A stretch of DNA of 64,000 bases from Rhizobacter sp. AJA081-3. GTDB taxonomy: Bacteria; Pseudomonadota; Gammaproteobacteria; Burkholderiales; Burkholderiaceae_C. Positions 37,669-53,881 of the stretch are shown here, in pieces (positions within the stretch are counted from its first letter, which is position 1; each line of letters starts with the position of its first letter). The DNA is taken from positions 4,588,001-4,652,000 of the forward strand of contig NZ_CP059067.1 in assembly GCF_017795745.1 (NCBI RefSeq). Reading direction: 5' to 3'. Below the pieces are notes generated by a model. The model was not told where the DNA came from, made no database searches, and was given only the letters and a program-made list of their open reading frames with translations. Made by a program: the position numbers and the translations under genes.

Positions 37669-38550
37669 CTAGCCGAGCTCACGGCTGGCCAGCGCCGCGG
37701 CCGCCGCACGCGTCTCGACGCCGAGCTTCTCGAACACATGCTCGAGGTGCTTGTTCACCGTGCGCGGGCTCATGCCGAGGATCTCGGCGACGTCGCGGTT
37801 GGTCTTGCCCTTGGCGATCCACGACAGCACCTCGGTCTCGCGCGGCGTGAGCGAGGCGGTGGCCAGCCTCGAGGGCGCCGTCTCGCCGGCGCCGCGAAGG
37901 CGCAGCAGCCACATCGTCTCGCCCAGGCCCACGGCGCCGAGGCGCCGGGCCAGCAGCGCGCGGCCGTCGGGCGCCACACGCTCCAGCTCGGCCGCCGCGT
38001 CGGCATCACCTTCAAGCTGCAGCCACTCGGTGCAGGCCGCGTCGTTGGAATCCTGGAAGAACTCGGCCAGCCAGCGCTGCGCCTGCGGCGAACGCCAGGC
38101 CAGGCGGCCGCGCGTGTCGACCACCAGCACGCCCATGCCGCCGACGTCGACCGCCTCGCGCGCCAGCCGCGCCGCACGCGCATTGCGCACGTGCGTGGCC
38201 AGGCGCGCCAGCACCTCCTGCGCACGCACCGGCTTGACGACGTAGTCGACGCCGCCGGCATCGAAGCCGGCGACGATGTGCGAGGTCTCCGACAGGCCGG
38301 TCATGAAGATCACCGGGATATGCGCCCAGGCCGGCTGCGCCTTGATGCGGCGGCAGGTCTCGAAGCCGTCGAGCCCCGGCATGCGCGCGTCCATGAGGAT
38401 GGCGTCGGGCGTGACGAGGTCGAGCCGCTCGAGCGCCGAGGCCCCGTCGGGCGCCACCAGCACGGTGTAGCCCTCGGCCTCGAGCTCGCTGCACAGCGCG
38501 CCCACTGACTGCGGCACGTCGTCGACGACGAGCACCACGTCGCGCGTCAC
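37669..38550 (-). CDS. LuxR/NarL-type response regulator of the amide locus
   Basis: The 293-residue protein has a receiver (about 1-125; DD at 10-11, D53 in ILMDARMPGLDG, lysine in VVKPV). A central PAS-like region follows (about 135-210), then a C-terminal LuxR helix-turn-helix (about 225-290, LTPRETEVLSWIAKGKTNRDVAEILG). The GTG start overlaps the stop of the hybrid kinase gene as GTGA (38550-38547), so they are a pair. It is the best candidate for binding the palindromes at 42028 and 51971, because NarL-type regulators bind such short inverted repeats. Confidence 0.85.
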   Translation of the reverse strand: MTRDVVLVVDDVPQSVGALCSELEAEGYTVLVAPDGASALERLDLVTPDAILMDARMPGLDGFETCRRIKAQPAWAHIPVIFMTGLSETSHIVAGFDAGGVDYVVKPVRAQEVLARLATHVRNARAARLAREAVDVGGMGVLVVDTRGRLAWRSPQAQRWLAEFFQDSNDAACTEWLQLEGDADAAAELERVAPDGRALLARRLGAVGLGETMWLLRLRGAGETAPSRLATASLTPRETEVLSWIAKGKTNRDVAEILGMSPRTVNKHLEHVFEKLGVETRAAAAALASRELG

Positions 38551-41500
38551 AGCGCCTCCGCGTCGGTGACGTCGAGCGCGCGGGTGAGCTGGTCGATCAG
38601 CTCGTTCCAGGCGAACCGATCGACCAGCACGCGCAGCATCGCCGCCTGCGCGCTGCATTCCGGGTGCTGCTGCCCCAGCGCCTCGAGCGCCTGCAGCAGG
38701 CCCTGCCGGTGGCCCAGGCGCGCCAGCCGCACCAGCGTGCGCGCATGCTCGTCGGGCAGGCGCACCGGGCGCGGCAACGCCGCCGGCGCCCAGCTCGGCA
38801 CCGCGAGCTCGGCCACCCACTCGAGCTGCAGGTGGCGCTGCAGCGCGGCGAGCAGCTCCGACTCGATCACCGGCTTGTCGACGAAACCCTGGCAGCCGGC
38901 CGCGACCAGCTTGTCGTTCTGGTTCTCGAAGGCATTCGCCGAGACCATGATGATCGGCACATCGGCCACGCCGGCGGCGCGGATGCGGCGCGCTGTCTCC
39001 CAGCCGTCCATGTCGTCCATCGAGATGTCGAGCAGCACGGCGTCGGGCGGCTGCTCGAGCACGCTTTCCAGGCACTCGTTGCCGGTGGCGGCCTCGCGGA
39101 TGCGAAAGCCCAACGGCAGCAGCATGCCGGCGAGCATCTGGCGCTGCGTCGGCTGGTCGTCGACCACCAGCAGGTTGCGCCGCGTGCCGATGTAGCCGGT
39201 CACCGGCCGGTGCGGCACGCCGCGCGGCGCGGCCGGCTCGGTGGTCTCGCTCAGGTACAGGCGCACGGTGAAGGTGCTGCCGTGGCCGGGCGAGCTCTTC
39301 ACCGTCAGTTCGCCGCCCATCAGCTGCGTCAGCAGGTGGGTGATCGTCAGGCCCAGGCCCGTGCCCGAGTCGCCGGTGCGCCGGCCGGCGCTGCCGCGCT
39401 CGAAAGGCAGGAAGATGCGCTCCAGGTCGGGTTCGGCGATGCCGATGCCGGTGTCGATGACCTGGAAGCGCGCCACCTCGCGGGTGTGGTCGAGCAGCAG
39501 CGTGATGCTGCCGCGGTCGGTGAAGCGCACCGCGTTGCCCAGCAGGTTGATGAGGATCTGGCGCAGCCGCCGCGCGTCGGCGCGCACGAAGGGCGGCACG
39601 CGGCCTTCGGTGCGCAGCTCGAAGTGCAGGCCCTTGGCCGCCGCCTGCGGCGCCACCATGCGCGCCAGGTCGTCGAGGAACTCCTGCGTCGACAGCGGCG
39701 CCGGATCCAGGCGCAGCTTTCCCGCCTCGATGCGCGCCAGATCGAGCAGCCCGTCGATCAGGCCGTGCAGGTGCTCGCCGCTGTGGCGGATGGTGTCGAC
39801 CGCGGCGCGCCGCTCGCCGCGCACCTGCTCATCCTTGAGCAGGATCTGCGCGTAGCCGAGGATGCTGTTCAGTGGCGTGCGTAACTCGTGCGTCATGCCG
39901 GTCACGTAGCGCGTCTTCGCCGAGTTGGCCGCCTCGGCCAGCTCCTTGGCGGCCTGCAGCGCGGCGTCGGTGCGGCGGTGCGCCTCGATCTCCTGCGTGA
40001 GCAGCAGGTTCTGCCGGTTCGATTCGTCCTCGGCCATGTGGCGGCTCTCGCTGCCCAGCACCATCCACCAGGCGCCCACCGCCACCACCAGCGAGAGCAG
40101 CGCGAAGGCCTTCAGGAAGGGCCCGGCCAGGGCCGCCTCGTCGGCCACGTGCAGCGCGGTCTGCTGGTCGTAGACGACGCCGAGGATCACGCCGAGCAAC
40201 GTGATCAGCGAGACGGCGACGACGAGGTAGTGCGCGACGCGGAAGTTGATGCGCGCGCTCAGGCGCTGCGGCAGCACCGCCGCCAGCGCCGCGCGCACCT
40301 GGTCGGCCGCGCGCGAGTCGGTCTTGCAGCGATCGTGGCAGCGCGACTCGAGCGTGCAGCACAGCGAGCAGATCGGCGCGCCGTAGGCCGGGCATTGCGC
40401 CATGTCCTCCGACTCGAAGTGGTTCTCGCACACCGAGCAGCGCACCGACTCGCCGGGCTTCCACAGCGTCGGCGCCGGCCGCGCCTGGTAGTAGCGGCCG
40501 CGCGTCCACCATGCCAGCAGCGGCGAGATCGCCATCGAGGCGAACAACGCGATGAAGGGCGCGTAGGCCTGCGCCACCTCGCCCATCGCGCCGGCGTAGG
40601 CCACCACCGCGAGCACGGCAGCGGTGAGCATCGCGCCCAGGCCGACCGGGTTGATGTCGTACAGGTGCGCGCGCTTGAATTCGATGTGCTTCGGGCTCCA
40701 GCCGAGCGGCTTGTTGATGACGAGGTCGGCCACCAGCGCGCCGACCCAGGCGATCGCCACGTTGCTGTACAGGCCGAGCACGCGCTCCAGCGCCTCGAAC
40801 ACGCCCAGCGTCATCAACAGCACGGCGATGAGCACGTTGAAGACCAGCCAGACCACGCGCCCCGGGTGGCTATGCGTGAGCCGCGCGAAGAAGTTCGACC
40901 AGGCCAGCGAGCCGGCGTAGGCGTTGGTGAGGTTGATCTTCACCTGCGAGACGATGACGAACAGCACCGTGGCGGCGAGCACCCAGCGCGCGTCGTCGAA
41001 CAGGTAGGCGTAGCCCGCCAGGTACATGTGCGTGGGCTCGACGGCCTTGTCCGGCGGCAGCTGCTGCTGCAGCGCCAGGAAGGCGAGGAAGGCGCCGCCG
41101 AGCATCTTCACCATGCCCGGCACGATCCAGCCCGGTCCGGCCACCAGCACCGCCGTCCACCAGCGCACGCGATTCTTCTTCGTCTTTTCCGGCAGGAAGC
41201 GCAGGTAGTCGACCTGCTCGCCGATCTGCACGACGAGCGAGAAGGCCACCGTGGCCGCGGAGCCGAACATCAGCGCGTCGAATCCCGAACTGCCCGACAC
41301 GCGCCCGGCCAGCGTGCCGAACTCGGCGAACTTGCCCGGGTCCTTGGCCAGCACCGCGGCGTAGGGCAGCAGGAACAGCAAGATCCACACCGGCTGCGTC
41401 CACAGCTGCAGGCGCGAGATCAGCGTGATGCCGTGCATCACCAGCGGCACCACGCCGAGCGAGGCGATCAGGTAGCAGATCGACAGCGGCCAGTCGGTGT

Positions 41501-41963
41501 ACATCTGCAGCGCCAGCGCGAGGATGGCCGCCTCGAGCGCGAAGAAGATGAAGGTGAAGCTCGCGTAGACCAGCGAGGTCAGCGTGGAGCCGAGGTAGCC
41601 GAAGCCCGCGCCGCGCGTGAGCAGGTCCATGTCCAGCCCGTACTTGGCGGCGTAGTAGCTGATCGGCAGCCCGGTGAGGAAGGTGATCAGCCCGACCACC
41701 AGGATCGCCCACAGCGCATTGGTGAAGCCGTAGCTCAGCGCGATGGCGCCGCCGATGGCCTCGAGCGCGAGGAACGACGTGGCGCCGAACGCGGTGTTGG
41801 CCACGCGCGCCTCGCTCCACTTGCGGAAGTGCCGCGGCGTGTAGCGAAGGGCGTAGTCCTCCAGCGTCTCGTCGGCGACCCAGCTGTTGTAGTCGCGACG
41901 GATGCGGAAGATCTTCTGCGGGGCGAGCGCCAATGCGGGTCCTCGATGGCCAAGACGGCCCAT
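38547..41963 (-). CDS. NCS1-type permease fused to histidine kinase and receiver
   Basis: The 1138-residue protein starts with an NCS1 (cytosine/purine/allantoin permease) domain of about 12 membrane helices (about 45-490). A cysteine-rich segment with 9 cysteines follows (about 509-546, CSVCENHF and CSLCC), then two more helices (about 575-640). After these come HisKA with H692 in MTHELRTPLNS, a HATPase domain (to about 925) and a receiver (about 935-1055), then a helical tail. The permease part probably serves as sensor for a transported nitrogen compound. The start is ATG 41963; TTG 41933 is an alternative. It is divergent from the transporter operon. Confidence 0.85.
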   Translation of the reverse strand: MGRLGHRGPALALAPQKIFRIRRDYNSWVADETLEDYALRYTPRHFRKWSEARVANTAFGATSFLALEAIGGAIALSYGFTNALWAILVVGLITFLTGLPISYYAAKYGLDMDLLTRGAGFGYLGSTLTSLVYASFTFIFFALEAAILALALQMYTDWPLSICYLIASLGVVPLVMHGITLISRLQLWTQPVWILLFLLPYAAVLAKDPGKFAEFGTLAGRVSGSSGFDALMFGSAATVAFSLVVQIGEQVDYLRFLPEKTKKNRVRWWTAVLVAGPGWIVPGMVKMLGGAFLAFLALQQQLPPDKAVEPTHMYLAGYAYLFDDARWVLAATVLFVIVSQVKINLTNAYAGSLAWSNFFARLTHSHPGRVVWLVFNVLIAVLLMTLGVFEALERVLGLYSNVAIAWVGALVADLVINKPLGWSPKHIEFKRAHLYDINPVGLGAMLTAAVLAVVAYAGAMGEVAQAYAPFIALFASMAISPLLAWWTRGRYYQARPAPTLWKPGESVRCSVCENHFESEDMAQCPAYGAPICSLCCTLESRCHDRCKTDSRAADQVRAALAAVLPQRLSARINFRVAHYLVVAVSLITLLGVILGVVYDQQTALHVADEAALAGPFLKAFALLSLVVAVGAWWMVLGSESRHMAEDESNRQNLLLTQEIEAHRRTDAALQAAKELAEAANSAKTRYVTGMTHELRTPLNSILGYAQILLKDEQVRGERRAAVDTIRHSGEHLHGLIDGLLDLARIEAGKLRLDPAPLSTQEFLDDLARMVAPQAAAKGLHFELRTEGRVPPFVRADARRLRQILINLLGNAVRFTDRGSITLLLDHTREVARFQVIDTGIGIAEPDLERIFLPFERGSAGRRTGDSGTGLGLTITHLLTQLMGGELTVKSSPGHGSTFTVRLYLSETTEPAAPRGVPHRPVTGYIGTRRNLLVVDDQPTQRQMLAGMLLPLGFRIREAATGNECLESVLEQPPDAVLLDISMDDMDGWETARRIRAAGVADVPIIMVSANAFENQNDKLVAAGCQGFVDKPVIESELLAALQRHLQLEWVAELAVPSWAPAALPRPVRLPDEHARTLVRLARLGHRQGLLQALEALGQQHPECSAQAAMLRVLVDRFAWNELIDQLTRALDVTDAEAL

Positions 41964-42027
41964 GCCGTCTTGCAAGAAGCAGTCCCGGCGGCCGCGCGAG
42001 TCTGCCGCGCCGCGCTGCGCGGCCCGC

Positions 42028-42043
42028 TACGTCGAATGACGTA
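42028..42043. promoter_or_regulatory. Palindromic operator TACGTC-N4-GACGTA upstream of urtA
   Basis: A perfect 6-bp inverted repeat with spacer GAAT. The same repeat occurs upstream of amiE at 51971-51986. In both cases a -10-like hexamer starts 24 bases after the repeat (TACCTT at 42067-42072 here), placing the repeat centre near -44, a usual activator position. It is likely bound by the LuxR-type regulator encoded nearby. Confidence 0.7.
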
Positions 42044-42163
42044 TTCGGCCTGCGCAGCCCTTCTCGTACCTTGGCGACATGCCGGAAGCGGCCAGGCCTC
42101 CAGAGCTTGCACAGCGATGGTGCCCCGCGCACGGATTTGTCCCCACCCCTCCAGGAGAGCCGC

Positions 42164-43423
42164 ATGTCCCATGACCAAGACCCCGATCTGAAATCGCTGC
42201 AGCGCCGCCGCCTGCTGCAAGGCGCCGCCGCGCTGCCGCTCGCCGGCATCCCGGCCTGGGCGCTCGCGCAGCAGTTCCCCACCGCGAAGGTGAACACCAC
42301 CAAGCTCGCCATCACCGACACCGAGGTGACGGTCGGCCAGCTGCACTCGGCCACCGGCACGATGGCGATCAGCGAGACCGGCTCGATCCAGGCCGAGCAG
42401 CTCGCCATCGACCAGATCAACGCGATGGGCGGCATCCTCGGCCGCAAGATCAAGGTCATCAAGGAAGACGGCGCCTCCGACTGGCCGACCTTCGCCGAGA
42501 AGAGCAAGAAGCTGCTCGTCAACGACAAGGTCGCCGCCGTGTTCGGCTGCTGGACCAGCGCCTCGCGCAAGGCCGTGCTGCCGGTGTTCGAGAAGGAGAA
42601 CGGCCTGCTGTACTACCCGACCTTCTACGAAGGCCTGGAGCAGAGCAAGAACGTCATCTACACCGGCCAGGAAGCCACCCAGCAGATCATCTGGAGCCTC
42701 GACTGGGGCGCCAAGGAGAAGAAGGCCAAGACCTACTTCCTGGTCGGCTCCGACTACATCTGGCCGCGCACCTCGATGAAGATCGCGCGCAAGCACATCG
42801 AGACGGTGGGCAAGCTCGGCAAGGTGGTCGGCGAGGAGTACTACCCGCTGGGCAACACCAACTTCAACTCGCTGATCAACAAGATCAAGGTCGCCAAGCC
42901 CGACTGCATCTTCTGCGCGGTGGTGGGCGGCTCCAACGTCGCCTTCTACAAGCAGCTCAAGGCCGCGGGCATCACCGGCGACAAGCAGTTCCTGCTGACG
43001 CTGTCGGTCACCGAGGACGAGATGACGGGCGTGGGCGGCGAGAACTTCACCGGCTTCTACTCGTCGATGAAGTACTTCCAGTCGCTGGACAACGAAAACA
43101 ACAAGAAGTTCGTCGCCGCCTTCAAGGCCAAGTACGGCAAGGACGCGGTGATCGGCGACGTGACGCAGGCCGGCTACCTCGGCCCCTGGCTGTGGAAGGC
43201 GGCGGTCGAGAAGGCCGGCAGCTTCGACGTCGACAAGGTCGTCGCGGCCTCGCCCGGCATCGAGCTGAAGACGGCGCCCGAGGGCTACGTGAAGCTCGAT
43301 GCCAACCACCACCTGTGGAGCAAGGCGCGCATCGGCCAGGGCCAGCCCGACGCCACCTTCAAGGTGGTGGCCGAGTCGGCCGAATTGATCAAACCCGATC
43401 CGTTCCCCAAGGGATACCAGTAA
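42164..43423 (+). CDS. urtA: Urea/short-chain amide ABC transporter, substrate-binding protein
   Basis: The 419-residue periplasmic protein has a twin-arginine-like signal (QRRRLLQGAAALPLAG) and the type I binding-protein fold of the UrtA/FmdD/AmiC group. VGQLHSATGTMAISETG (about 58-74) is the ligand-loop signature, and GILGRKIKVIKEDGASDWP is also conserved. AGGAGA lies 8 bases before the ATG at 42164. It is the first gene of urtABCDE-fmdAB. The co-transcribed formamidase suggests formamide or other short amides as ligand as well as or instead of urea. Confidence 0.9.
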   Translation: MSHDQDPDLKSLQRRRLLQGAAALPLAGIPAWALAQQFPTAKVNTTKLAITDTEVTVGQLHSATGTMAISETGSIQAEQLAIDQINAMGGILGRKIKVIKEDGASDWPTFAEKSKKLLVNDKVAAVFGCWTSASRKAVLPVFEKENGLLYYPTFYEGLEQSKNVIYTGQEATQQIIWSLDWGAKEKKAKTYFLVGSDYIWPRTSMKIARKHIETVGKLGKVVGEEYYPLGNTNFNSLINKIKVAKPDCIFCAVVGGSNVAFYKQLKAAGITGDKQFLLTLSVTEDEMTGVGGENFTGFYSSMKYFQSLDNENNKKFVAAFKAKYGKDAVIGDVTQAGYLGPWLWKAAVEKAGSFDVDKVVAASPGIELKTAPEGYVKLDANHHLWSKARIGQGQPDATFKVVAESAELIKPDPFPKGYQ

Positions 43424-43450
43424 CCCGGCAGCCACTTCAGGAGCAGCATC

Positions 43451-44365
43451 GTGAACTTCTCGGAAATGCTCAACATCGGCCTGATGCAGGGTTTTGCAGG
43501 CCTGAGTCTGTTCTCGGTGCTGCTGCTGATGGGCCTGGGCCTGGCGATCATCTTCGGCCAGATGGGCGTGATCAACATGGCGCATGGCGAGTTCATGACC
43601 ATCGGCGCCTACACCATCTTCCTCGGCTCCACGCTCTCCGAGAAGTTCGCGCCGAGCTTCATTCCGTACTACTTCCCGGTGGCGATCGGCGTGGCCTTCG
43701 TGCTCGCCTTCATCGCCGGCTGGCTGGTGGAGTGGGCGCTGATCCGCCACCTCTACAAGCGCCCGCTGGACACGCTGCTGGCCACCTGGGGCCTGAGCCT
43801 CGGGATCCAGCAGATGTTCCGCACCGGCATCGGCCCGAAGGAAGTCAGCCCGACGCTGCCCGACTGGCTGCTCGGCTCCTGGGCCCCGCACCCCGGCCTG
43901 GACATCCCGATCAACGGCCTGTTCGTTCTCGCGCTCACCGCCTTCGTCACCGGCGCCGTGATGCTCGCGCTGTACCGCAGCCGCTGGGGATTGCGCGTTC
44001 GCGCCACCGTGGCGAACCGGCAGATGGCCAACGCGGTGGGCATCAACACCAGCAAGACGGACCGCCTGACCTTCGCCATCGGCTGCGGCATCGCCGGCGT
44101 GGCGGGCGCGGCCTTCACCACCATCGGCTCGACCGGCCCGACCTCGGGGTCGCTGTACATCGTCGACGCCTTCCTCGTCGTCACCTTCGGCGGCGCGGCC
44201 AGCCTGCTGGGCACCGTGGCCTCGGCCTTCGGCATCGCGCAGACGCAGTCGATCAGCGAGTTCTTCATGAGCGGCTCGATGGCCAAGGTGCTGACGCTGT
44301 CGATGATCGTGCTGATCCTGATGATGCGGCCGCAGGGCCTGTTCGCATCGAGGGTTCGCCGCTGA
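43451..44365 (+). CDS. urtB: Urea/amide ABC transporter permease
   Basis: The 304-residue LivH-family permease has about eight membrane helices, with the conserved FGQMGVINMAHGEFMTIGAY (about 37-56) and a late segment LVVTFGGAASLLGTVASAFG. It starts with GTG behind AGGAG, 28 bases after the binding-protein gene. It works with the next permease as a heterodimer. Confidence 0.92.
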   Translation: MNFSEMLNIGLMQGFAGLSLFSVLLLMGLGLAIIFGQMGVINMAHGEFMTIGAYTIFLGSTLSEKFAPSFIPYYFPVAIGVAFVLAFIAGWLVEWALIRHLYKRPLDTLLATWGLSLGIQQMFRTGIGPKEVSPTLPDWLLGSWAPHPGLDIPINGLFVLALTAFVTGAVMLALYRSRWGLRVRATVANRQMANAVGINTSKTDRLTFAIGCGIAGVAGAAFTTIGSTGPTSGSLYIVDAFLVVTFGGAASLLGTVASAFGIAQTQSISEFFMSGSMAKVLTLSMIVLILMMRPQGLFASRVRR

Positions 44366-44396
44366 GCCGAATGCGCAACCTTCCCGGAGACCCTGC

Positions 44397-45596
44397 ATGA
44401 ATTCCCTCAAGACCTGGCTCGCGCGCCCCGGCGTGGGCAGCACGATGCTGCTGGCGGTGCTGCTGCTGGCGATCCTGCCGCTGTCGCTCGATGCCTTCCG
44501 CCTCAACCTGGTGGGCAAGTACCTCACCTATGCCTTCGTCGCCGTCGGCCTGGTGATGGTGTGGGGCTACGGCGGCGTGCTCAGCCTCGGCCAGGGCGTG
44601 TTCTTCGGCCTGGGCGGCTACGCGATGGCGATGTTCCTCAAGCTCGAGGCGTCCGACCCGATCAGCACGAAGATCCAGTCGACGCCGGGCATCCCCGACT
44701 TCATGGACTGGAACCAGCTCACCGAGCTGCCGCTGTTCTGGCTGCCGTTCAAGAGCCTGCCGCTGACGCTGATCATGGTGATCGCGGTGCCCACGCTGCT
44801 GGCCTTCATCATCAGCTACGCGATGTTCAAGCGGCGCGTGGGCGGCGTGTACTTCGCGATCATCACGCAGGCGGTGGCGCTGATCGTCACCGTGCTGATC
44901 ATCGGCCAGCAGGGCTACACCGGCGGCGTCAACGGCATGACCGACCTGAAGACGCTGCTGGGCTGGGACATCCGCACCGACTCGGCGCGCCTGATCCTCT
45001 ACTACGTCTGCTCGGGGCTCCTGCTCGCCAGCATCGTGCTGTGCGCCTGGATCCAGAGGAGCAAGCTCGGCACGCTGCTGCTGGCCATGCGCGACAAGGA
45101 AGACCGGGTGCGCTTCTCCGGCTACGACGTGGCGATGTTCAAGGTCGCCGTGTTTTGCCTGGGCGCGGCGCTGTCCGGCATCGGCGGCGCCATGTTCGCC
45201 TTGCAGGTCGGCTTCATGTCGCCCTCGTTCGTCGGCATCGTCCCGTCGATCGAGATGGTCATCTACGCCGCTGTCGGAGGCCGCATGAGCCTGGTCGGCG
45301 CGGTGGTCGGCGCACTGCTGGTCAATGCCGGCAAGACGCTGTTCTCCGAGACCTTTCCGGATCTCTGGCTGTTCCTGATGGCGGCGCTGTTCATCGGCGT
45401 GACCATGGCCTTCCCGAACGGGCTGGCCGGGCTGTTCGAGAGCCACATCAAGCCGTGGTGGACGAAGCGCCAGGCACAGCGCGCCGGCCAGAAGCAGGCC
45501 CTGGCCGCCGCGCAGGCCGCCTACCCCGACGCCCCCAGACCCGCGCCCGCCGCGCCGCCCACCCTGCCCCCGGGCGTGAGCAGCCAGCAGGCCTGA
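44397..45596 (+). CDS. urtC: Urea/amide ABC transporter permease
   Basis: The 399-residue LivM-family permease has about ten membrane helices. VWGYGGVLSLGQGVFFGLGGYAMA is the characteristic segment (positions about 51-74), and FKVAVFCLGAALSGIGGAMFA the second one. The C-terminal 45 residues are an alanine/proline-rich cytoplasmic tail. It follows urtB by 31 bases. Confidence 0.92.
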   Translation: MNSLKTWLARPGVGSTMLLAVLLLAILPLSLDAFRLNLVGKYLTYAFVAVGLVMVWGYGGVLSLGQGVFFGLGGYAMAMFLKLEASDPISTKIQSTPGIPDFMDWNQLTELPLFWLPFKSLPLTLIMVIAVPTLLAFIISYAMFKRRVGGVYFAIITQAVALIVTVLIIGQQGYTGGVNGMTDLKTLLGWDIRTDSARLILYYVCSGLLLASIVLCAWIQRSKLGTLLLAMRDKEDRVRFSGYDVAMFKVAVFCLGAALSGIGGAMFALQVGFMSPSFVGIVPSIEMVIYAAVGGRMSLVGAVVGALLVNAGKTLFSETFPDLWLFLMAALFIGVTMAFPNGLAGLFESHIKPWWTKRQAQRAGQKQALAAAQAAYPDAPRPAPAAPPTLPPGVSSQQA

Positions 45597-45606
45597 GGAG
45601 AGCCCC

Positions 45607-46350
45607 ATGAGCAACACCGACTTCGCCCTCGCCGTGGAAGACCTGACCGTCTCCTTCGACGGCTTCAAGGCCATCGACGCGCTGACGCTGTACATCGACA
45701 AGAACGAGCTGCGCGTGATCATCGGCCCGAACGGCGCGGGCAAGACCACGCTGCTCGACCTGATCTGCGGCAAGACCAAGGCCAGCGCCGGCAGCATCAA
45801 GTTCAAGAACGAGGAGCTGACGAAGCTGCCCGAGCACACCCGCGTGCGCCGCGGCATCGGCCGCAAGTTCCAGACGCCCTCGATCTACGAGAACCTCACG
45901 GTCTTCCAGAACCTCGAGGTGTCGTTCCCGAAGGGCCGCTCGGTGATGGGGGCCCTCTTCTTCAAGTGCGACGACGAGGTGAAGGCGCGCGTGCAGGTGG
46001 TGGCCGAGGAAGTGGGCCTGGCCGAGTTGCTGCCCACCGAAGCCGGGCTGCTCAGCCACGGGCAGAAGCAGTGGCTGGAGATCGGCATGCTGCTGATGCA
46101 GGAGCCCGAGCTGCTGATGCTCGACGAGCCGATCGCCGGCATGAGCGCGCGCGAGCGCGAGCTCACCGCCGCGCTGCTGCAGCGCATCTGCAAGAACCGC
46201 TCGGTGATCGTGATCGAGCACGACATGGATTTCGTCAAGCAGATCGCCCACAAGGTCACCGTGATGCACCAGGGAAAGATCCTCGCCGAGGGCTCCATGG
46301 AGAAGGTGCAGAACGACCCGAAGGTCATCGACGTGTACCTGGGCCATTGA
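45607..46350 (+). CDS. urtD: Urea/amide ABC transporter ATPase
   Basis: The 247-residue LivG-type ATPase shows Walker A GPNGAGKT (about 39-46), the signature-like LLSHGQKQWLEIG, Walker B LLMLDEP and the switch histidine in VIEHDMDF. The serine of the usual LSGG is replaced by the SHGQ form that is typical for UrtD-like proteins. The start is ATG after GAGGAG, 10 bases past urtC. Confidence 0.93.
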   Translation: MSNTDFALAVEDLTVSFDGFKAIDALTLYIDKNELRVIIGPNGAGKTTLLDLICGKTKASAGSIKFKNEELTKLPEHTRVRRGIGRKFQTPSIYENLTVFQNLEVSFPKGRSVMGALFFKCDDEVKARVQVVAEEVGLAELLPTEAGLLSHGQKQWLEIGMLLMQEPELLMLDEPIAGMSARERELTAALLQRICKNRSVIVIEHDMDFVKQIAHKVTVMHQGKILAEGSMEKVQNDPKVIDVYLGH

Positions 46351-46360
46351 GGAGACCCCG

Positions 46361-47050
46361 ATGCTGAGCGTGAAGGACCTGTTCGTCGCCTACGGGCAAA
46401 GCGAGGCGCTGCACGGCATCTCGTTCGAGGCGGCCTCGAAGGAGACCGTGGCCATCATGGGCCGCAACGGCATGGGCAAGACCACGCTGTTCAAGAGCCT
46501 GATGGGCGTGCTGCCCACGAAGAGCGGCTCGGTCACCGTGGCCGGCAGCGAGATCAGCCACGACGAGAGCTACCGCCGCGTCGCCAAGGGCATCGCCTAC
46601 GTGCCGCAGGGCCGCATGATCTTCCCGACGCTGACCGTCGAGGAGAACATCCAGACCGGCCTGGAGAACGCGAAGGACAAGCGCATCCCCGAGGAGATCT
46701 ACGCGCTGTTCCCAGTGCTGTGGGACATGAAGCGCCGCAAGGGCGGCAACCTCTCCGGCGGCCAGCAGCAGCAGCTGGCGATCGCCCGCGCGCTCGTCAC
46801 CAACCCGAAGGTGCTGCTGCTCGACGAGCCGACCGAAGGCATCCAGCCCTCGATCATCAAGGACATCGCGAAGGCGCTCAACGAGATCCGCAAGCTGCGC
46901 GAGATCACCATCGTCGTGAGCGAGCAGGTGCTGAGCTTTGCGATGGACGTGGCGGATCGCCTGTTCGTCATCGAGGGCGGCCGGCTCGTGCACGAGACCA
47001 GCCGCGCCGACACCGACGCCGCCCACATCAAGCAGTACCTGTCCGTATGA
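46361..47050 (+). CDS. urtE: Urea/amide ABC transporter ATPase
   Basis: The 229-residue LivF-type ATPase has Walker A GRNGMGKT (about 34-41), signature LSGGQQQQLAIARAL, Walker B LLLDEPTEGIQP and the family-typical VSEQVLSFAMDVADR in place of the switch histidine. It pairs with UrtD. It starts 10 bases after urtD behind GAGGAG. Confidence 0.93.
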   Translation: MLSVKDLFVAYGQSEALHGISFEAASKETVAIMGRNGMGKTTLFKSLMGVLPTKSGSVTVAGSEISHDESYRRVAKGIAYVPQGRMIFPTLTVEENIQTGLENAKDKRIPEEIYALFPVLWDMKRRKGGNLSGGQQQQLAIARALVTNPKVLLLDEPTEGIQPSIIKDIAKALNEIRKLREITIVVSEQVLSFAMDVADRLFVIEGGRLVHETSRADTDAAHIKQYLSV

Positions 47051-47081
47051 ATGACAGCCCCCGGCCGCCGAGTACGGCGTC

Positions 47082-47098
47082 CGCCCCCCGCGGGGGCG
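47082..47098. repeat. GC-rich hairpin between urtE and fmdA
   Basis: CGCCCCC-CGC-GGGGGCG is a perfect 7-bp stem in the 118-base gap after urtE. There is no T-run, so full termination is unlikely. It may lower expression of fmdAB relative to the transporter, or be a copy of a repetitive extragenic element. Confidence 0.35.
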
Positions 47099-47168
47099 CG
47101 GCCCGGGCTTGAGGCGGCTCGGCGCCCGGTCCGCCACTTCGATTACCACCCAGCCAAGGAGCACAGCC

Positions 47169-48395
47169 ATGCCCGAAACCCTGATCAAGGTCGACCTTTC
47201 CAAGCCCGCACCGTCCAACGAGATGGTGCACAACCGCTGGCACCCGGACATCCCGATGGCCTGCTGGGTCAAGCCGGGCGACGAGTTCGTGCTCGAGACC
47301 TACGACTGGACCGGCGGCTTCATCAAGAACAACAACAGCGCCGACGACGTGCGCGACATCGACCTGTCGACGGTGCACTACCTCTCCGGCCCGGTGGGCG
47401 TGAAGGGTGCCGAGCCGGGCGACCTGCTGGTGGTCGACCTGCTGGACATCGGCGCCAAGGACGACAGCCTGTGGGGCTTCAACGGCTTCTTCAGCAAGAA
47501 GAACGGCGGCGGCTTCCTGACCGAGCACTTCCCGCAGGCGCAGAAGTCGATCTGGGACTTCCACGGCATGTTCACCACTTCGCGCCACGTGCCGGGCGTG
47601 AAGTACGCCGGCCTGATCCACCCCGGGCTGATCGGCTGCCTGCCGGACCCGAAGATGCTGGAGATGTGGAACGCCCGCGAGCAGGCGCTGATCGACTCCG
47701 ACCCGGCCACCAGCGGCCTGGCCAACCCGCCGTTCGCCGGCACCGCGCACATGGGCAAGCTGACCGGTGACGCGAAGGCGAAGGCCGCCGCCACCGGCGC
47801 GCGCACCGTGCCGCCGCGCGAACACGGCGGCAACTGCGACATCAAGGACCTGTCGCGCGGCTCGAAGATCTTCTTCCCGGTCTACGTCGATGGCGCGGGC
47901 CTGTCGGTGGGCGACCTGCACTTCAGCCAGGGCGACGGCGAGATCACCTTCTGCGGCGCGATCGAGATGGCCGGCTGGGTGCACATGAAGGTCAGCCTGA
48001 TCAAGGGCGGCATGGCCAAGTACGGCATCAAGAACCCGATCTTCAAGCCCAGCCCGATCAAGCCGGTCTACGACGACTACGTGATCTTCGAGGGCATCAG
48101 CGTCGACGAATCCGGCAAGCAGTACTACCTGGACGTGAACGTCGCGTACCGCCAGGCCTGCCTGAATGCGATCGAGTACCTGAAGAAGTTCGGCTACTCG
48201 GGGGCGCAGGCGTATTCGATCCTCGGCACGGCGCCGGTGCAGGGGCACATCAGCGGCGTGGTCGACGTGCCCAACGCCTGCGCGACGCTGTGGCTGCCGA
48301 CCGCGATCTTCGACTTCGACATCAACCCGAGCGCGGCCGGGCCGACGAAGTTCATCGACGGCAGCATCCAGATGCCGCTGTCCCCCGACCTCTGA
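47169..48395 (+). CDS. fmdA: Formamidase
   Basis: The 408-residue FmdA/AmdA-family enzyme hydrolyses formamide to formate and ammonia. It shows the family segments HNRWHPDIPMACWVKPGDEF (about 19-38), GPVGVKGAEPGDLLVVDLLDI, HPGLIGCLPDP, the metal-site-like PPREHGGNCDIKDL (about 218-231) and VYVDGAGLSVGDLHFSQGDGE. Length and motifs match formamidase of Methylophilus. AAGGAG precedes the ATG at 47169. It is cotranscribed with the transporter and with fmdB. Confidence 0.93.
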   Translation: MPETLIKVDLSKPAPSNEMVHNRWHPDIPMACWVKPGDEFVLETYDWTGGFIKNNNSADDVRDIDLSTVHYLSGPVGVKGAEPGDLLVVDLLDIGAKDDSLWGFNGFFSKKNGGGFLTEHFPQAQKSIWDFHGMFTTSRHVPGVKYAGLIHPGLIGCLPDPKMLEMWNAREQALIDSDPATSGLANPPFAGTAHMGKLTGDAKAKAAATGARTVPPREHGGNCDIKDLSRGSKIFFPVYVDGAGLSVGDLHFSQGDGEITFCGAIEMAGWVHMKVSLIKGGMAKYGIKNPIFKPSPIKPVYDDYVIFEGISVDESGKQYYLDVNVAYRQACLNAIEYLKKFGYSGAQAYSILGTAPVQGHISGVVDVPNACATLWLPTAIFDFDINPSAAGPTKFIDGSIQMPLSPDL

Positions 48396-48414
48396 CCTGC
48401 GCAGGAGCTGCCGC

Positions 48415-48756
48415 ATGCCGACCTACGACTACGCCTGCCCGGCCTGCGGCAGCTTCGACGCGCTGCGCTCGTTCACGCAGCGCGACGAGCCCGCCGCCTG
48501 CCCCGATTGCGCGACGCCCTCGCCGCGGGTGTTCGCCGCGATGCCGCGGCTGGCGCTGATGGAAGGCTCGACGCGCCGGGCGATGGAGACCAACGAGCGC
48601 GCCCGCCACGAGCCGAAGAGCTCGGGCAGCTACCCGCTTATGCGCCACCCGGCCGGCTGCGGCTGCTGTTCCACCGGCAAGCGCGGCGCCACGGTCACTG
48701 CGGCAAACGGTGCCAAGGCCTTCCCGAGCAAGCGGCCGTGGATGATCAGCCACTGA
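48415..48756 (+). CDS. fmdB: FmdB-type zinc-ribbon protein
   Basis: The 113-residue protein has an N-terminal zinc ribbon of the FmdB family (MPTYDYACPACG and CPDC, four cysteines at about 8, 11, 29, 32) and a second cysteine group GCGCC near 81-85. FmdB has been described as a positive regulator of formamidase in Methylophilus; the mechanism is unclear. It follows fmdA by 19 bases and has AGGAG before the start. Confidence 0.88.
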   Translation: MPTYDYACPACGSFDALRSFTQRDEPAACPDCATPSPRVFAAMPRLALMEGSTRRAMETNERARHEPKSSGSYPLMRHPAGCGCCSTGKRGATVTAANGAKAFPSKRPWMISH

Positions 48757-48778
48757 ACGGGTCCTGATCGGCCGCAAA

Positions 48779-48800
48779 CCCGGCGGCGGGCGCCGCCGGG
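48779..48800 (+). terminator. GC hairpin after fmdB
   Basis: CCCGGCGGC-GGGC-GCCGCCGGG is a perfect 9-bp stem 23 bases after the fmdB stop. No T-run follows, so it is a possible but unproven end of the urt-fmd operon. Confidence 0.45.
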
Positions 48801-48859
48801 CGCAGGGTGCTAAGCTTTCCGCCCCAAAAGCGAAAAGCGCCCTGCGCACGGAGACCCTC

Positions 48860-50011
48860 ATGCCCGGATTGCTGCCCGACGTCGACCCCGATGGCCTGCT
48901 CGAATACTCGGTGGTCTACACCGACCGCGCGGTCAACCACATGTCGCGCAAGTTCCAGGGTGTGATGCGCGACATCTCCGGCGTGCTCAAGGAGGTCTAC
49001 AACGCCCGCTCGGCCGTCGTCGTGCCGGGCAGCGGCACCTACGGCATGGAAGCGGTGGCGCGCCAGTTCGCCACCGACCGCCCGGTGCTGGTGATCCGCA
49101 ACGGCTGGTTCAGCTACCGCTGGACGCAGATCTTCGACATGGGACGCATCCCTTCGTCGAGCACCGTGCTGAAGGCGCGCACCGCCGGTGCGGGCCGGCA
49201 GATGCCCTTCGCGCCGGCGCCGATCGACGAGGTGGTGGCGACCATCCGCCGCGAAAAGCCGGCCGTGGTGTTCGCACCGCACGTCGAGACCTCCGCCGGC
49301 CTGGTGCTGCCCGACGACTACCTGAAGGCCGTGGCCGATGCCGCGCACGAGGTGGGTGGCCTGTTCGTGCTCGACTGCATCGCCTCCGGCGCGTTGTGGG
49401 TGGACATGAAGGCCACCGGCGTCGACGTGGTCATCAGCGCGCCGCAGAAGGGCTGGACCGGCTCGCCCTGCTGCGCCTTCGTGATGCTCGGCGAGCGCGC
49501 CCGCACCGCGATCGACTCCACCACCAGCAGCAGCTTCGCCATCGACCTGCGCAAGTGGCTGCAGATCATGGAGACCTACGAGAGCGGCGCGCACATGTAC
49601 CACACCACCATGCCGACCGATGCGCTGACGCGCACGCGCGACGTGATGCTGGAGACGAAGGCGCTCGGCTTCGAGAAGCTGCGCGCGGCGCAGCTCGAGC
49701 TCGGCCGCAAGGTGCGCGCGACGCTGGTGCGCCGCGGCTTCCCGAGCGTGGCGGCCGAGGGCTTCCAGGCCGCGGGCGTGGTGGTCAGCTACACCACCGA
49801 CGACGGCCTGCAAAGCGGCAAGAGCTTCCTCGCCGAAGGCCTGCAATCGGCCTCGGGCGTGCCGCTGCAGTGCGACGAAGGCCCCGACTTCAAGACCTTC
49901 CGCCTCGGCCTGTTCGGCCTGGAGAAGCTGCAGCACGTCGACCGCACGGTGCAGAACCTCGAAGCGGCGCTCGACCGCATCGCCGGCGCCGGGCAGCGCG
50001 CCGCCGCCTGA
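48860..50011 (+). CDS. Class V pyridoxal-phosphate aminotransferase
   Basis: The 383-residue enzyme belongs to the alanine-glyoxylate/serine-pyruvate aminotransferase group. VVPGSGTYGMEA (about 54-65) binds the cofactor phosphate, and K197 in VISAPQKGW forms the Schiff base. ETSAGLVLPDDYL and a C-terminal FRLGLFGLEKL are further family marks. The gene is downstream of fmdAB in the same direction with a 103-base gap, so it may be read from its own promoter. Its substrate and link to amide use are unknown. Confidence 0.85.
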   Translation: MPGLLPDVDPDGLLEYSVVYTDRAVNHMSRKFQGVMRDISGVLKEVYNARSAVVVPGSGTYGMEAVARQFATDRPVLVIRNGWFSYRWTQIFDMGRIPSSSTVLKARTAGAGRQMPFAPAPIDEVVATIRREKPAVVFAPHVETSAGLVLPDDYLKAVADAAHEVGGLFVLDCIASGALWVDMKATGVDVVISAPQKGWTGSPCCAFVMLGERARTAIDSTTSSSFAIDLRKWLQIMETYESGAHMYHTTMPTDALTRTRDVMLETKALGFEKLRAAQLELGRKVRATLVRRGFPSVAAEGFQAAGVVVSYTTDDGLQSGKSFLAEGLQSASGVPLQCDEGPDFKTFRLGLFGLEKLQHVDRTVQNLEAALDRIAGAGQRAAA

Positions 50012-50042
50012 CCGGGCGCGGCCGCGGGTTGGCGGGCGAGCC

Positions 50043-50996
50043 GTGTCGCACCGCGTCGCCTACATCGCCCGCATCAACCGGGTGCTCGACCACATCGACA
50101 CCCACCTCGCCGACGTGCTCGACCTGGGCACGCTGGCGGCGGTGGCGAACTTCTCGCCCTGGCACTTCCACCGCGTCTTCCAGTCGGTCACCGGCGAGAC
50201 GCTCGCCGATCGGGTGCGCCGACGCCGGCTGGAAGTGGCCGCGGGCCGGCTGCTGTGCCTGCCGTCGCAGGCCGCACTGACGATCGCACTGGACGTCGGC
50301 TTCGCCTCGGCCGAGGTCTTCACGCGGGCGTTCAAGGCCCGCTTCGGCGTCACGCCCAGCGCATGGCGGCGCGGCGCCTGGCGCGAGTGGGCACAGGTGC
50401 ATCGCGATCGACTCCGCAAGATTCATCAAGCGCATGGCAAGCAACATCAAGCCGTCATCGAAGCGCTGCAGCACGATGCGTCCCCATGGCAAGACCGCCA
50501 TGCCGACGGAGAAGAAGCGATGGACATCGAACTGCGAACCCTGCCCGACCTGCGCGTGGCCTACATGCGCCACGTGGGGCCCTACGGAAGCCCGGCCATC
50601 GGACAGATGTGGTTCCGCTTCGACGCGTGGCGGCGGCAGCGTGGCCTGCAGCGCGCCGACATCCTGCTGCTCGGCGTGAGCCAGGACAGCCCCGACATCA
50701 CCGCGCCCGAGCGGTGCCGCTACGACGCCTGCGTGCAGGTCGACGAGCACTTTCGGCCCGAGGGAGAGATCGGCGTGCAGACCATTGCCGGTGGCCGCTA
50801 CGCCTGCCTCCGCTTCGACGGCACGGGCAGGGAGATCCACGCCGCCTGGCAGCGTGTATTCGCGCAGTGGCTGCCGGGCAGCGGTTACCAGCCCGACGAC
50901 CGGCCTTGCGCCGAACTCTACGACCGGGGCAGCGACATCGAGCCGAAGACGGGGCGATTCAGCTGCCTTCTGTGCGTGCCGCTGCGCCCGGCCTGA
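50043..50996 (+). CDS. AraC-family regulator with GyrI-like effector domain
   Basis: The 317-residue protein has a double helix-turn-helix DNA-binding domain at the N-terminus (about 5-108; SPWHFHRVFQSVTGETL and SAEVFTRAFKARFGVTPSAWRRG). A GyrI-like small-molecule domain follows (about 160-315; MDIELRTLPDLRVAYMRHVGPY). This Rob-like layout binds hydrophobic drugs in characterised members. It begins with GTG 31 bases after the aminotransferase gene and ends next to a convergent gene. A role in amide use is not indicated. Confidence 0.88.
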   Translation: MSHRVAYIARINRVLDHIDTHLADVLDLGTLAAVANFSPWHFHRVFQSVTGETLADRVRRRRLEVAAGRLLCLPSQAALTIALDVGFASAEVFTRAFKARFGVTPSAWRRGAWREWAQVHRDRLRKIHQAHGKQHQAVIEALQHDASPWQDRHADGEEAMDIELRTLPDLRVAYMRHVGPYGSPAIGQMWFRFDAWRRQRGLQRADILLLGVSQDSPDITAPERCRYDACVQVDEHFRPEGEIGVQTIAGGRYACLRFDGTGREIHAAWQRVFAQWLPGSGYQPDDRPCAELYDRGSDIEPKTGRFSCLLCVPLRPA

Positions 50997-51959
50997 TCAG
51001 TTCTTCTGAGCCGCGGGCAGCGGCAGGCCGCGCGCGCGCAGCACCGCGCGGGCGCGATCGGGGTAGTCGGTGATCAGGCCATCGACGCCCCAGCCGATCA
51101 GGCGCTCCATGTCGGCACTTTCGTTGACGGTCCACGGGATCACCTGCAGGCCGAGCGCGTGTGCCTCGTCGACGAGGCGCGCGTTCAGGTCATCGAAGTT
51201 CGGCGACCAGATCGTGCCGCCGGCCGCCTTCACCATCTTCGGCAGCGTGCCGTGCTCGGCGAGGCCGAAGCCGGCGGTCCACGCGCCGTCGGCGATCGTA
51301 TTGAAGCGCGGCGTCTGCGCCGACAGGTAGGCGGTGGGCAGGCCCGGCGCGCGTTGCTGCACACGCTGCAGCGCCCGCCAGTCGAAACCCTGGACCGTGA
51401 CGCGCCCTTCCATGCCGGCCTGTTTCACCAAGGCCAGCAGCGCATCGACGATCTGTTCGAAAGCCGGCGTTTCCTCGGGCCGGTGCGGATTCATCTTGAT
51501 CTCGATGTTGAACCGCACGCCGTCGGCACCGAGCTCGCGCACCTTCTGGAACAGCGCAGCCAGCGTCGGGATGCGTTGCCCATCCACCGGTTGCTGCGAG
51601 GGAAAGCCGCGCGCATAGGCCGTGCCGGGCTGCAGCCGGCCGACGTCGAAGGCCTGGATCTGCGCCAGCGTGAGATCTCGCAGCAGCGGGCCCGGCGCCT
51701 TCACCCACGCGCCCTGTGCATCGCGCGCCAGGTCGGGATTGATGCGCGGGTCGTGGCTGATCACCAGGATGCCGTCGGCACTCAGGTGCACGTCGGTCTC
51801 GAGCGTGGTGACGCCGATCTCCAGTGCGCGCTCGAAGGCGGCCAGCGTGTTTTCCGGCGCCAGGCCGCGCGCTCCGCGGTGGCCTTGCAGGTCGAAGGCG
51901 CACGCGCCGGCGCTCAGCGCGATGGCCCCCACGGCAACGAGCATCCAACGCAGCCTCAT
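50997..51959 (-). CDS. Periplasmic glycerophosphodiester phosphodiesterase
   Basis: The 320-residue protein has a signal peptide ([18 protein letters not shown]) and the GDPD fold: [18 protein letters not shown] (about 26-43) with the first catalytic histidine, [17 protein letters not shown] (metal site and second histidine) and FNIEIK. It would release glycerol 3-phosphate from deacylated phospholipids. ATG 51959 was chosen; GTG 51965 is possible. It is divergent from amiE; the operator at 51971 lies 12 bases upstream of its start. Confidence 0.9.
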
Positions 51960-51970
51960 GCGCACGATGC

Positions 51971-51986
51971 TACGTCAATCGACGTA
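51971..51986. promoter_or_regulatory. Palindromic operator TACGTC-N4-GACGTA upstream of amiE
   Basis: A perfect copy of the palindrome found upstream of urtA, with spacer AATC. The flanks GC before and TTxGxCC after are shared by both sites. A -10-like TGCAAT (52010-52015) is placed exactly as TACCTT is at the first site and is likewise followed by GG. amiE starts 58 bases downstream. Confidence 0.7.
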
Positions 51987-52044
51987 TTGGCCCGGGCGCG
52001 CCGCTTCGCTGCAATGGCCCCATCCCAGACCACCGGAGCGGGCC

Positions 52045-53085
52045 ATGCACCACGGCGACATCTCGAGCAGCAAGGACACCGTCGGCGTCGCCGTCGTCAA
52101 CTACAAGATGCCGCGACTGCACAGCAAGGCGGAGGTGCTGGCCAATGCGCGCCAGATCGCCGACATGATCGTCGGCATGAAGCTCGGCCTGCCGGGCATG
52201 GACCTGGTCATCTTCCCCGAGTACAGCACGCACGGGATCATGTACGACTCGAAGGAGATGTACGACACCGCCAGCACCGTGCCCGGCGAGGAGACGGCGA
52301 TCTTCGCGGCGGCCTGCAGGAAGGCCAAGGTCTGGGGCGTGTTCTCGCTGACCGGCGAGCGCCACGAGGAGCACCCGAACAAGGCGCCCTACAACACGCT
52401 GATCCTGATGAACGACCAGGGCGAGATCATCCAGAAGTACCGCAAGATCATGCCCTGGGTGCCCATCGAGGGCTGGTACCCGGGCAACTGCACCTATGTC
52501 AGCGAGGGCCCCAAGGGCCTGAAGGTCAGCCTCATCATCTGCGACGACGGCAACTACCCGGAGATCTGGCGCGACTGCGCGATGAAGGGCGCCGAGCTGA
52601 TCGTGCGCTGCCAGGGCTACATGTACCCGGCCAAGGAGCAGCAGATCATGATCTCCAAGGCCATGGCCTTCGCCAACAACACCTACGTGGCGGTGGCCAA
52701 CGCGGCCGGCTTCGACGGCGTGTACTCGTACTTCGGCCACAGCGCGATCATCGGTTTCGACGGCCGCACGCTCGGCGAATGCGGCGAGGAGGACATGGGC
52801 ATCCAGTACGCGGCCCTGTCCAAGAGCCTGATCCGCGACTTCCGCAAGAACGGCCAGAGCGAGAACCACCTCTTCAAGCTGCTGCACCGCGGCTACACCG
52901 GCCTGATCAACTCGCGCGAGGGCGACCAGGGCGTGGCCGCCTGCCCCTACGAGTTCTACAGCCAGTGGGTGAACGACCCCGAAGGCACACGCAAGCGTGT
53001 CGAGGCGATCACGCGCGACACCGTGGGCACCGAAGAGGCGCCGATCGAGGGCATCCCGAACCCGGCCACGCTGGCGCATCGTTAG
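52045..53085 (+). CDS. amiE: Aliphatic amidase
   Basis: The 346-residue nitrilase-superfamily enzyme hydrolyses acetamide and other short aliphatic amides to the acid and ammonia. The catalytic triad is at exactly the positions known for the Pseudomonas aeruginosa enzyme: E59 in IFPEYS, K134 in KYRKIMPW and C166 in IICDDGN, and the length is the same (346). It lies behind the shared operator and starts the unit amiE-AAA-VWA, with the AAA gene 10 bases after it. Confidence 0.96.
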
Positions 53086-53095
53086 GAGCGCCGCG

Positions 53096-53881
53096 ATGGA
53101 TGCCCACCGCATCCGCAGCGAGCCGTACTACCAGAGCGTCGCCGACGAAGTCGCGCTGTTCGAGGCGGCCTACGCGAAGCGCCTGCCGCTGCTGCTCAAG
53201 GGCCCCACGGGCTGCGGCAAGACGCGCTTCGTCGAGCACATGGCCTGGCGGCTCGGCAAGCCGCTGGTCACCGTGGCCTGCCACGAGGACCTGAGCGCCG
53301 CCGATCTGGTGGGCCGCTGGCTGCTCGACGCCGACGGCACGCGCTGGCAGGACGGGCCGCTGGCGCTGGCCGCGCGGCACGGCGCGCTGTGCTATCTCGA
53401 CGAACTGGTCGAGGCGCGTGCCGACACCACGGTGGTGATCCACCCGCTGGCCGACACGCGGCGCGTGCTTCCGATCGCCGCCTGCAACGAGCTGCTCGCC
53501 GCACACCCGGACTTCTCGCTGGTCGTGTCCTACAACCCCGGCCCGATGGCGCGCGAGATGAAGGCCTCGACGCGGCAGCGCTTCTGCGCGCTCGAGTTCC
53601 GCCATCCCGCACCGGAGGCCGAGGCCACGATCGTGGCGCGCGAATCCGGGCTCGGTCTTGACACGGCAGCCACGATCGTCGCCTTTGGCGTGCGCACGCG
53701 GCGCCTGCAGGGCCATGGCCTGGACGAGGGCGCGTCCACACGCATGCTGGTGCACGCCGCCGTGCTGGCGGTGCAGGGCGTGGCGCCGCGGCGGGCCTGC
53801 CGCATGGCGGTAGTCGACGCTCTGAGCGACGAGCCCGGCGTGCACGACGCGTTGCTGGGGGCGCTGGATGCGTCGTTCTGA
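53096..53881 (+). CDS. MoxR/CbbQ-type AAA ATPase
   Basis: The 261-residue ATPase has Walker A GPTGCGKT (36-43), Walker B ALCYLDEL (about 97-104), the sensor asparagine in VVSYNPGP and a C-terminal lid. It resembles CbbQ/NorQ/NirQ, which remodel rubisco or nitric oxide reductase together with a VWA partner. Here it sits 10 bases behind amiE with AGGAG before its ATG, and the VWA gene follows. It may activate or assemble the amidase or another amide enzyme; that is inference. Confidence 0.88.
   Translation: MDAHRIRSEPYYQSVADEVALFEAAYAKRLPLLLKGPTGCGKTRFVEHMAWRLGKPLVTVACHEDLSAADLVGRWLLDADGTRWQDGPLALAARHGALCYLDELVEARADTTVVIHPLADTRRVLPIAACNELLAAHPDFSLVVSYNPGPMAREMKASTRQRFCALEFRHPAPEAEATIVARESGLGLDTAATIVAFGVRTRRLQGHGLDEGASTRMLVHAAVLAVQGVAPRRACRMAVVDALSDEPGVHDALLGALDASF

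Follow-up and report, generated by a model that had tools for sequence, protein, structure and literature searches.

What joins two operons of one amide locus that carry the same palindrome in front of similarly aligned promoters? In the 64-kb stretch of Rhizobacter sp. AJA081-3 analysed here (hereafter the window; 69.7% G+C, from a genome that consists of one contig), TACGTC-N4-GACGTA precedes both urtABCDE-fmdAB, which encodes an ABC transporter of the urt type and a formamidase, and a second operon that begins with the aliphatic amidase gene amiE. The initial annotation read the repeats as the activator site of a single regulator and named the LuxR-type response regulator encoded at 37669 (hereafter RR1) as the obvious candidate. 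Our sequence analyses support both proposals: the site is conserved, keeps a fixed distance to a −10-like element and is not scattered over the genome; it co-occurs with RR1, and a sister site tracks the recognition helix of an RR1 paralogue, RR2. The palindromes are thus very probably class II activator sites of RR1, which would act downstream of an amide-sensing hybrid kinase with an NCS1-like membrane part, with a paralogous pair doing likewise for urea.

The palindrome pair and its promoter layout

A scan of the whole 5.4-Mb genome found exactly two exact copies of the palindrome, those at 42028 and 51971; the pair noticed at the outset is therefore unique genome-wide. Within the 64-kb window, no third copy was present even with up to two mismatches allowed. 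Rather than occurring in many copies without relation to these genes, the exact pattern is confined to the amide locus. Assuming independent bases, twelve fixed letters would be expected 0.12 times per genome and 0.0014 times per 64 kb. Two further places differ by one letter (1295080 and 4162686), and at this tolerance the palindrome and a reversed control pattern have four places each, none of the latter exact. The frame TACG-N8-CGTA is rare in this genome, with nine places versus 123 for its reversed control, and three of the nine are the two amide sites and the site before urtA2, the urea counterpart of urtA considered below. The loose form of the palindrome is unremarkable by itself, because 20 of 100 shuffles of the window contain two or more matches with at most two mismatches; both real matches are exact. 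The flanks are as first described, with GC 5′ of both repeats and TTxGxCC on the 3′ side (TTCGGCC and TTGGCCC).

A −10-like hexamer followed by GG begins 24 bases 3′ of each palindrome (TACCTTGG at 42067 and TGCAATGG at 52010), as the initial annotation had pointed out. The second hexamer, TGCAAT, makes a poor −10 element, as it lacks A at position 2 and does not fit xAxxxT; several relatives have cAgAAT-like letters at this position. If the hexamers are taken as −10 elements, the palindrome extends from about −51 to −36 with its centre at about −43.5, in agreement with the −44 proposed earlier. Across relatives, xAxxxT stands exactly 24 bases 3′ of the palindrome in 37/37 urtA, 64/66 urtA2 and 11/16 amiE promoters (the urtA and amiE sets include one promoter each from the window and from genome G068), whereas at other offsets it occurs in 2–3% of cases (26/999, 36/1782 and 9/432, respectively). 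Such fixed spacing, with a centre near −40 to −45 of the predicted starts, is the layout of a class II activator site.

The palindrome at 42028 is flanked by the leftward kinase–RR1 pair and the rightward urtABCDE-fmdAB operon, and probably serves the divergent kinase–RR1 operon as well, a side of the site that the initial annotation had not considered. Here the mirror position holds CAGACT. Mirror-side xAxxxT at offset 24 is found at 11 of the 37 urtA sites (window included), at one of 16 amiE sites and at one of 66 urtA2 sites, so that the site looks two-sided in some genomes and may serve the kinase operon there too.

Conservation of the amide site in the family

RR1 was searched for in 200 genomes of the family, and 40 regions of at most 20 kb were fetched round the best matches. 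They comprise 37 RR1 loci, two loci with a third type of regulator (G185 and G081) and one RR2 locus (G129). All 37 RR1 loci have a site with at most two mismatches 5′ of urtA (of fmdA in G013). These loci were retrieved through RR1 and not through the site; G068, whose loci were found through the site itself, and the window are not among them. The weakest sites, with two mismatches each, belong to L052, L070 and L079, and in G175 divergent amiE and urtA have one site in common. The bases between palindrome and −10 element vary across relatives while the site persists in many genera. Among named genomes, whose loci overlap in species with the family-genome set, a urtA start was readable in 70 of at least 80 loci, and all 70 have the site, 66 as strict TACG-N8-CGTA and four as TGCGT[C/T]GAATGACGTA; Variovorax, Rubrivivax, Rhizobacter, Delftia, Comamonas, Acidovorax, Methyloversatilis and Zeimonas are represented. 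The scan of homologues that the initial annotation had suggested thus reveals a conserved site at fixed spacing before urtA and free-standing amiE.

The exact pattern occurs at 23 places in 18 of the 200 family genomes. By our count, 19 of these places precede urtA, fmdA, fmdB or amiE of the amide module, and RR1 or its operon is present in 17 of the 18 genomes. In 80 of the genomes that lack RR1, no close urtA turned up, and the single 57% relative, present in one of them, has no site; a negative control of urtA without RR1 is hardly obtainable, because urtA is absent from such genomes. Two genomes of the same genus, G091 and G193, have neither an amide-type RR1 nor a close urtA, so the module looks accessory in the genus. 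In G033, an exact amide-type site (L092:5043-5058), with no −10 element at offset 24, stands some 95 bases 5′ of a gene that was judged by eye to be porin-like and perhaps encodes an amide porin.

The site also travels with free-standing amiE. This gene is present in 36 of the 200 family genomes, and its upstream region was read in 34 relatives, again leaving aside the window and G068. Free-standing here means that amiE is separated from any fmdB or urtE upstream of it by more than 100 bases, or is located elsewhere. Counting matches in 10 or more of the 12 letters, the site is found in 14 of 16 genomes that have RR1 and such an amiE; it lies 60–98 bases 5′ of amiE, and the exceptions are G145 and G014. 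Where amiE follows fmdB or urtE within 100 bases in RR1-containing genomes, none of 16 has the site, nor does either of the two amiE genes in genomes without RR1 (G147 and G192).

A urea paralogue and its sister site

RR2, the second addition to the initial annotation, is 50% identical to RR1, is encoded elsewhere in the source genome (G000:C1:961878-962834) and, together with its own kinase, adjoins the urease genes and urtA2. The urtA2 promoter of this genome carries TACGCCACCTTGCGTA, a sister site of the form TACGCC-N4-TGCGTA followed 24 bases later by TAACCT, and the main difference from the amide site is one letter per half. Scoring TACG-N8-CGTA with at least nine of ten letters as a site, we found one before urtA2 in 65 of 66 genomes with RR2 and in two of 37 without it (Fisher p 6e-24, uncorrected for kinship). 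The comparison covers the 103 family genomes in which urtA2 was present and its upstream sequence could be read. These are not a random sample: 30 have the closest urtA2, the others were picked to cover both classes, and for some the exact-pattern result was already known when they were picked. G124 and G068 were dropped because of contig ends, G160 was set to site present from other readings, G112 was moved to RR2-present, and G049, which has RR1 only, was counted as RR2-absent.

The two modules meet in some relatives. Urease genes lie near an amide-type RR1 in nine loci (L232, L236, L237, L239, L240, L243, L254, L257 and L260), so amide and urea modules can adjoin. In G056, the urtA2 promoter (L099:7002-7017 and L099:7086-7101) combines the urea-type site TACGCCACCTTGCGTA, read towards urtA2, with an amide-type TACGTCGATCGACGTA farther upstream, which makes cross-control in this promoter possible.

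Directly behind 'TV' in the recognition helix, RR1 has Asn (36 genomes for which a site was assigned), RR2 has Lys, His, Gln or Thr, and regulators of the third type have Thr. Half-site letters 5–6 are TC (49) or TT (23) for Asn regulators, i.e. base 5 is T in 72/72; they are CC (53), AC (6) or GC (1) for Lys, CC (9) or CA (9) for His, CC (4) or CA (2) for Gln, and AC (11), CC (2) or CA (1) for Thr, with T at base 5 in 0/98 half-sites of these four classes. This pattern suggests that the helix residue tracks base 5 of the half-site, with exceptions. The comparison rests on 36 Asn, 30 Lys, 9 His, 3 Gln and 7 Thr rows; 14 genome–regulator rows without an assigned site and two with an unread residue were set aside, and G112 and the Ser regulator of Herbaspirillum were excluded. 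The latter (L293, Herbaspirillum autotrophicum) is an RR1-type regulator with a mixed site, TACGCCGTTTGACGTA, before fmdA.

On the tree, seven residue changes and nine base-5 changes are needed, and Thr changes up to four times, two of these changes being forced by supported branches. Independent pairs agree for Thr and base A in 2/2 cases on supported branches (four pairs on the best tree), for Asn and T in one of two cases, the other pair not differing, and for His and Gln in 1/1. In phmmer alignments with family members of solved structure, the helix residue falls on the Lys of their 'TVK' motif. A counterpart in NarL is Lys188, and classic contact rules pair Asn with adenine and Lys with guanine, with which the opposite-strand bases agree here. 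In a model of DegU on DNA, as far as the available text of that report goes, lysines of the recognition helix touch bases (PMC9263151).

The putative sensor kinase

The AlphaFold2 model of kinase residues 1–510 (18 sequences) has a pLDDT of 78 and a pTM of 0.79, and the best five folds for the membrane part are the NCS1 transporters CodB (7qoa, E 8e-10, TM 0.61 by query) and Mhp1 (2jln and others). The first SLC5 structure appeared only at rank 10 of the fold search, which does not place the membrane domain in SLC5. The fold alone was informative, as sequence searches of the membrane part against solved structures and Pfam gave nothing useful. Between the NCS1-like part and HisKA lies a cysteine-rich CxxC stretch, for which Pfam offered only a sub-threshold match (Prok-RING_1, E 1.2). 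No STAC linker match turned up in the Pfam scans, in which the presence of a STAC model was unchecked. The gene's start codon is a prediction, the earliest in-frame start being TTG 41975.

Gene content of the locus

The features of the locus are collected in Table 1. The GTG start of RR1 overlaps the stop codon of the kinase gene, and RR1 matches Response_reg (8.4e-26) and GerE (3.2e-19), the domain combination of a NarL/FixJ-type regulator (LuxR HTH), with about 110 residues separating the two domains. The names urtB, urtC, urtD and urtE come from the initial annotation; the family-library scans did not cover these four genes. For the third gene of the amiE operon, neither Pfam nor NCBIfam gave a match at 0.001. 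An aminotransferase-like gene (48860-50011) between fmdB and an AraC-type gene had no Pfam match at 0.001, a below-cut-off NCBIfam match to PhnW-AepZ (8e-24) and no counterpart in the RR1 regions of relatives at 1e-12.

Table 1. Features of the amide locus (positions in the window)
Feature	Position	Strand	Basis or location
RR1, response regulator: receiver, linker, LuxR-type (GerE) domain, recognition helix TVNKHLEH	37669..38550	-	domain scans
Hybrid histidine kinase: NCS1-transporter-like membrane part, cysteine-rich stretch, HisKA, HATPase, receiver	38547..41963	-	inferred start codon
-10-like hexamer CAGACT, kinase-RR1 operon side	41999..42004	-	mirror offset 24
Palindrome 1, TACGTCGAATGACGTA	42028..42043	no strand	between divergent kinase gene and urtA
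-10-like hexamer TACCTT, urtA promoter	42067..42072	+	24 bases 3′ of palindrome 1
urtA-type binding protein, first gene of target operon 1	42164..43423	+	family scans
urtB, urtC, urtD, urtE-type ABC transporter genes	43451..47050	+	ORFs and counterparts in relatives
fmdA, formamidase	47169..48395	+	family scans
fmdB, zinc-ribbon protein	48415..48756	+	family scans
Palindrome 2, TACGTCAATCGACGTA	51971..51986	no strand	58 bases 5′ of amiE
-10-like hexamer TGCAAT (weak), amiE promoter	52010..52015	+	24 bases 3′ of palindrome 2
amiE, aliphatic amidase, first gene of target operon 2	52045..53085	+	family scans
AAA ATPase, CbbQ/NirQ/NorQ type	53099..53881	+	inferred start codon
Third gene of amiE operon (VWA protein in the initial annotation)	53917..55527	+	ORF

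Discussion

From the sites, their spacing, conservation and co-occurrence with the regulator genes, the domains and the predicted fold, we infer RR1 binding, phosphotransfer, activation and the inducer as follows. The hybrid kinase would use its NCS1-like membrane part to sense a short-chain amide, or some compound related to one, and would phosphorylate RR1; RR1 dimers would then bind the 16-bp site in a 7-2-7 geometry, centred near −43.5 beside a poor −35, and activate the sigma-70 promoters of urtABCDE-fmdAB and of amiE with the two genes behind it. The site at 42028 would serve the divergent kinase–RR1 operon as well, and the paralogous pair at the urease locus would act likewise on urea transport through the sister site.

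A two-component activator site is of a familiar kind; the NCS1-like sensor, the amide/urea pair and the tracking of residue and base make this an uncommon variant. AmiC/AmiR of Pseudomonas controls amiE, accompanied by an AAA partner gene, through antitermination by AmiR. The present locus likewise has amiE with an AAA partner gene; unlike that system, it showed no ANTAR match in the scans, which covered 10 proteins of the window. The published systems are compared as far as the available text of each report goes. The closest is CrbS/CrbR, which likewise has a hybrid kinase with a transporter-like membrane part, a LuxR-family regulator and an inverted repeat; its ACTU motif, an imperfect inverted repeat (e.g. 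TACTACCATCGTCGAAT), spans −52 to −36 relative to a mapped start, matching the predicted −51 to −36 of the amide sites, and is required for activation (PMC5715377). CrbS has an SLC5 symporter domain where the present kinase has an NCS1-like fold, and CrbR serves acetate genes in Gammaproteobacteria rather than amide and urea genes in Burkholderiales, with a different half-site base. An engineered 7-2-7 site of NarL, TACCCCTAAAGGGGTA, shares its 16-bp TAC...GTA palindrome geometry with the amide sites (PMC4549865), and a sequence search with the DNA-binding domain of RR1 matched, among others, that of NarL; however, the inner site bases differ, NarL serves nitrate, and RR1 has its interdomain stretch of about 110 residues. 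The fmdCABDEF amide/urea cluster of Methylophilus is induced by formamide and urea, and includes a putative positive regulator and an outer-membrane porin (PMC10781810). In the Rhizobacter locus, by contrast, a two-component system is the likely regulator. The positive regulator of the Methylophilus cluster we take to be FmdB. Searches of the open literature, outside which most subscription papers lie, yielded no regulator of this amide/urea kind among the titles and abstract beginnings listed.

Could the palindromes instead be operators of another regulator, such as a global nitrogen regulator or the AraC-type protein encoded at 50043? Both operons serve nitrogen acquisition and the AraC-type gene is situated between them, but this gene is found in none of the 37 RR1 regions of relatives, all of which have the site, and it lies beside amiE only in the window and in G172; the AraC-type protein was rejected as the main binder on this ground. 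The exact site is confined to one locus, unlike the sites of a global regulator, while the urea sister site tracks the presence of RR2 and half-sites track the helix residue. We consider this explanation improbable. That RR1 binds but represses, with relief through a changed phosphorylation state, appears highly improbable: fixed spacing by itself would fit either sign of control, but the site as placed leaves the −10 element free and lies beside a poor −35, and the CrbR motif at nearly the same position belongs to an activator (PMC5715377). A chance match, or a functionless copy of one promoter, is hardly credible in spite of the shuffled windows, since the pair is exact and genome-unique, and since the site is kept in many genera, with fixed spacing before urtA and free-standing amiE, while the bases between palindrome and −10 element vary; the initial annotation had already called the shared spacing unlikely by chance.

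Several observations nonetheless weigh against RR1 and RR2 as the regulators of these sites, or against a simple recognition rule. Over the 200 genomes, we counted 38 places for the reversed control and 23 for the motif, so that location, not abundance, carries the argument, and it is on location that a chance or dispersed motif was rejected. Four of the 23 exact places lie elsewhere: one precedes urtA2 of G056, one precedes the porin-like gene of G033, and one each in G078 and G153 is unplaced. Of these genomes, G153 has neither RR1 nor its operon. Co-occurrence alone cannot name the binder, because the urtA operon is co-inherited with both the kinase and RR1. The urea site is found in two genomes without RR2 (G027 and G100), and G084 has RR2 with an altered recognition helix (AVQEQLE) but no site. 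G112 has Lys yet two TACGAC half-sites, a counterexample, and G056 (His) was scored by its urea-type site, with the amide-type site farther upstream set aside. Predictions of the helix residue written down before the sequences were fetched were right in 14 of 20 cases (Thr 1/1; His 4/7, three being Gln; Lys 9/12, two being Thr and one Gln), and the two Thr regulators mistaken for Lys have sites with one TACGAC half. This outcome and G112 weaken a strict residue–base code, and with only two supported pairs the residue switches do not permit a test. A bolder proposal, which we find possible without quite favouring it, is that paralogous pairs of transporter-like kinase and regulator keep the amide and urea regulons apart, their DNA specificities differing through a single helix residue, with Asn matched to T, Lys/His/Gln to C and Thr to A at one base of the half-site; that the NCS1 domain acts as a genuine 'transceptor' for amides and urea; and that the switch arose more than once.

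The analysis names a likely regulator, its site and a promoter layout for the uptake genes of formamide, acetamide and urea across many Burkholderiales, including Variovorax, Rubrivivax, Delftia, Comamonas and others. The sister pair would offer a natural, testable case of insulation between two paralogous regulators in one cell, with the partners of residue and base predicted.

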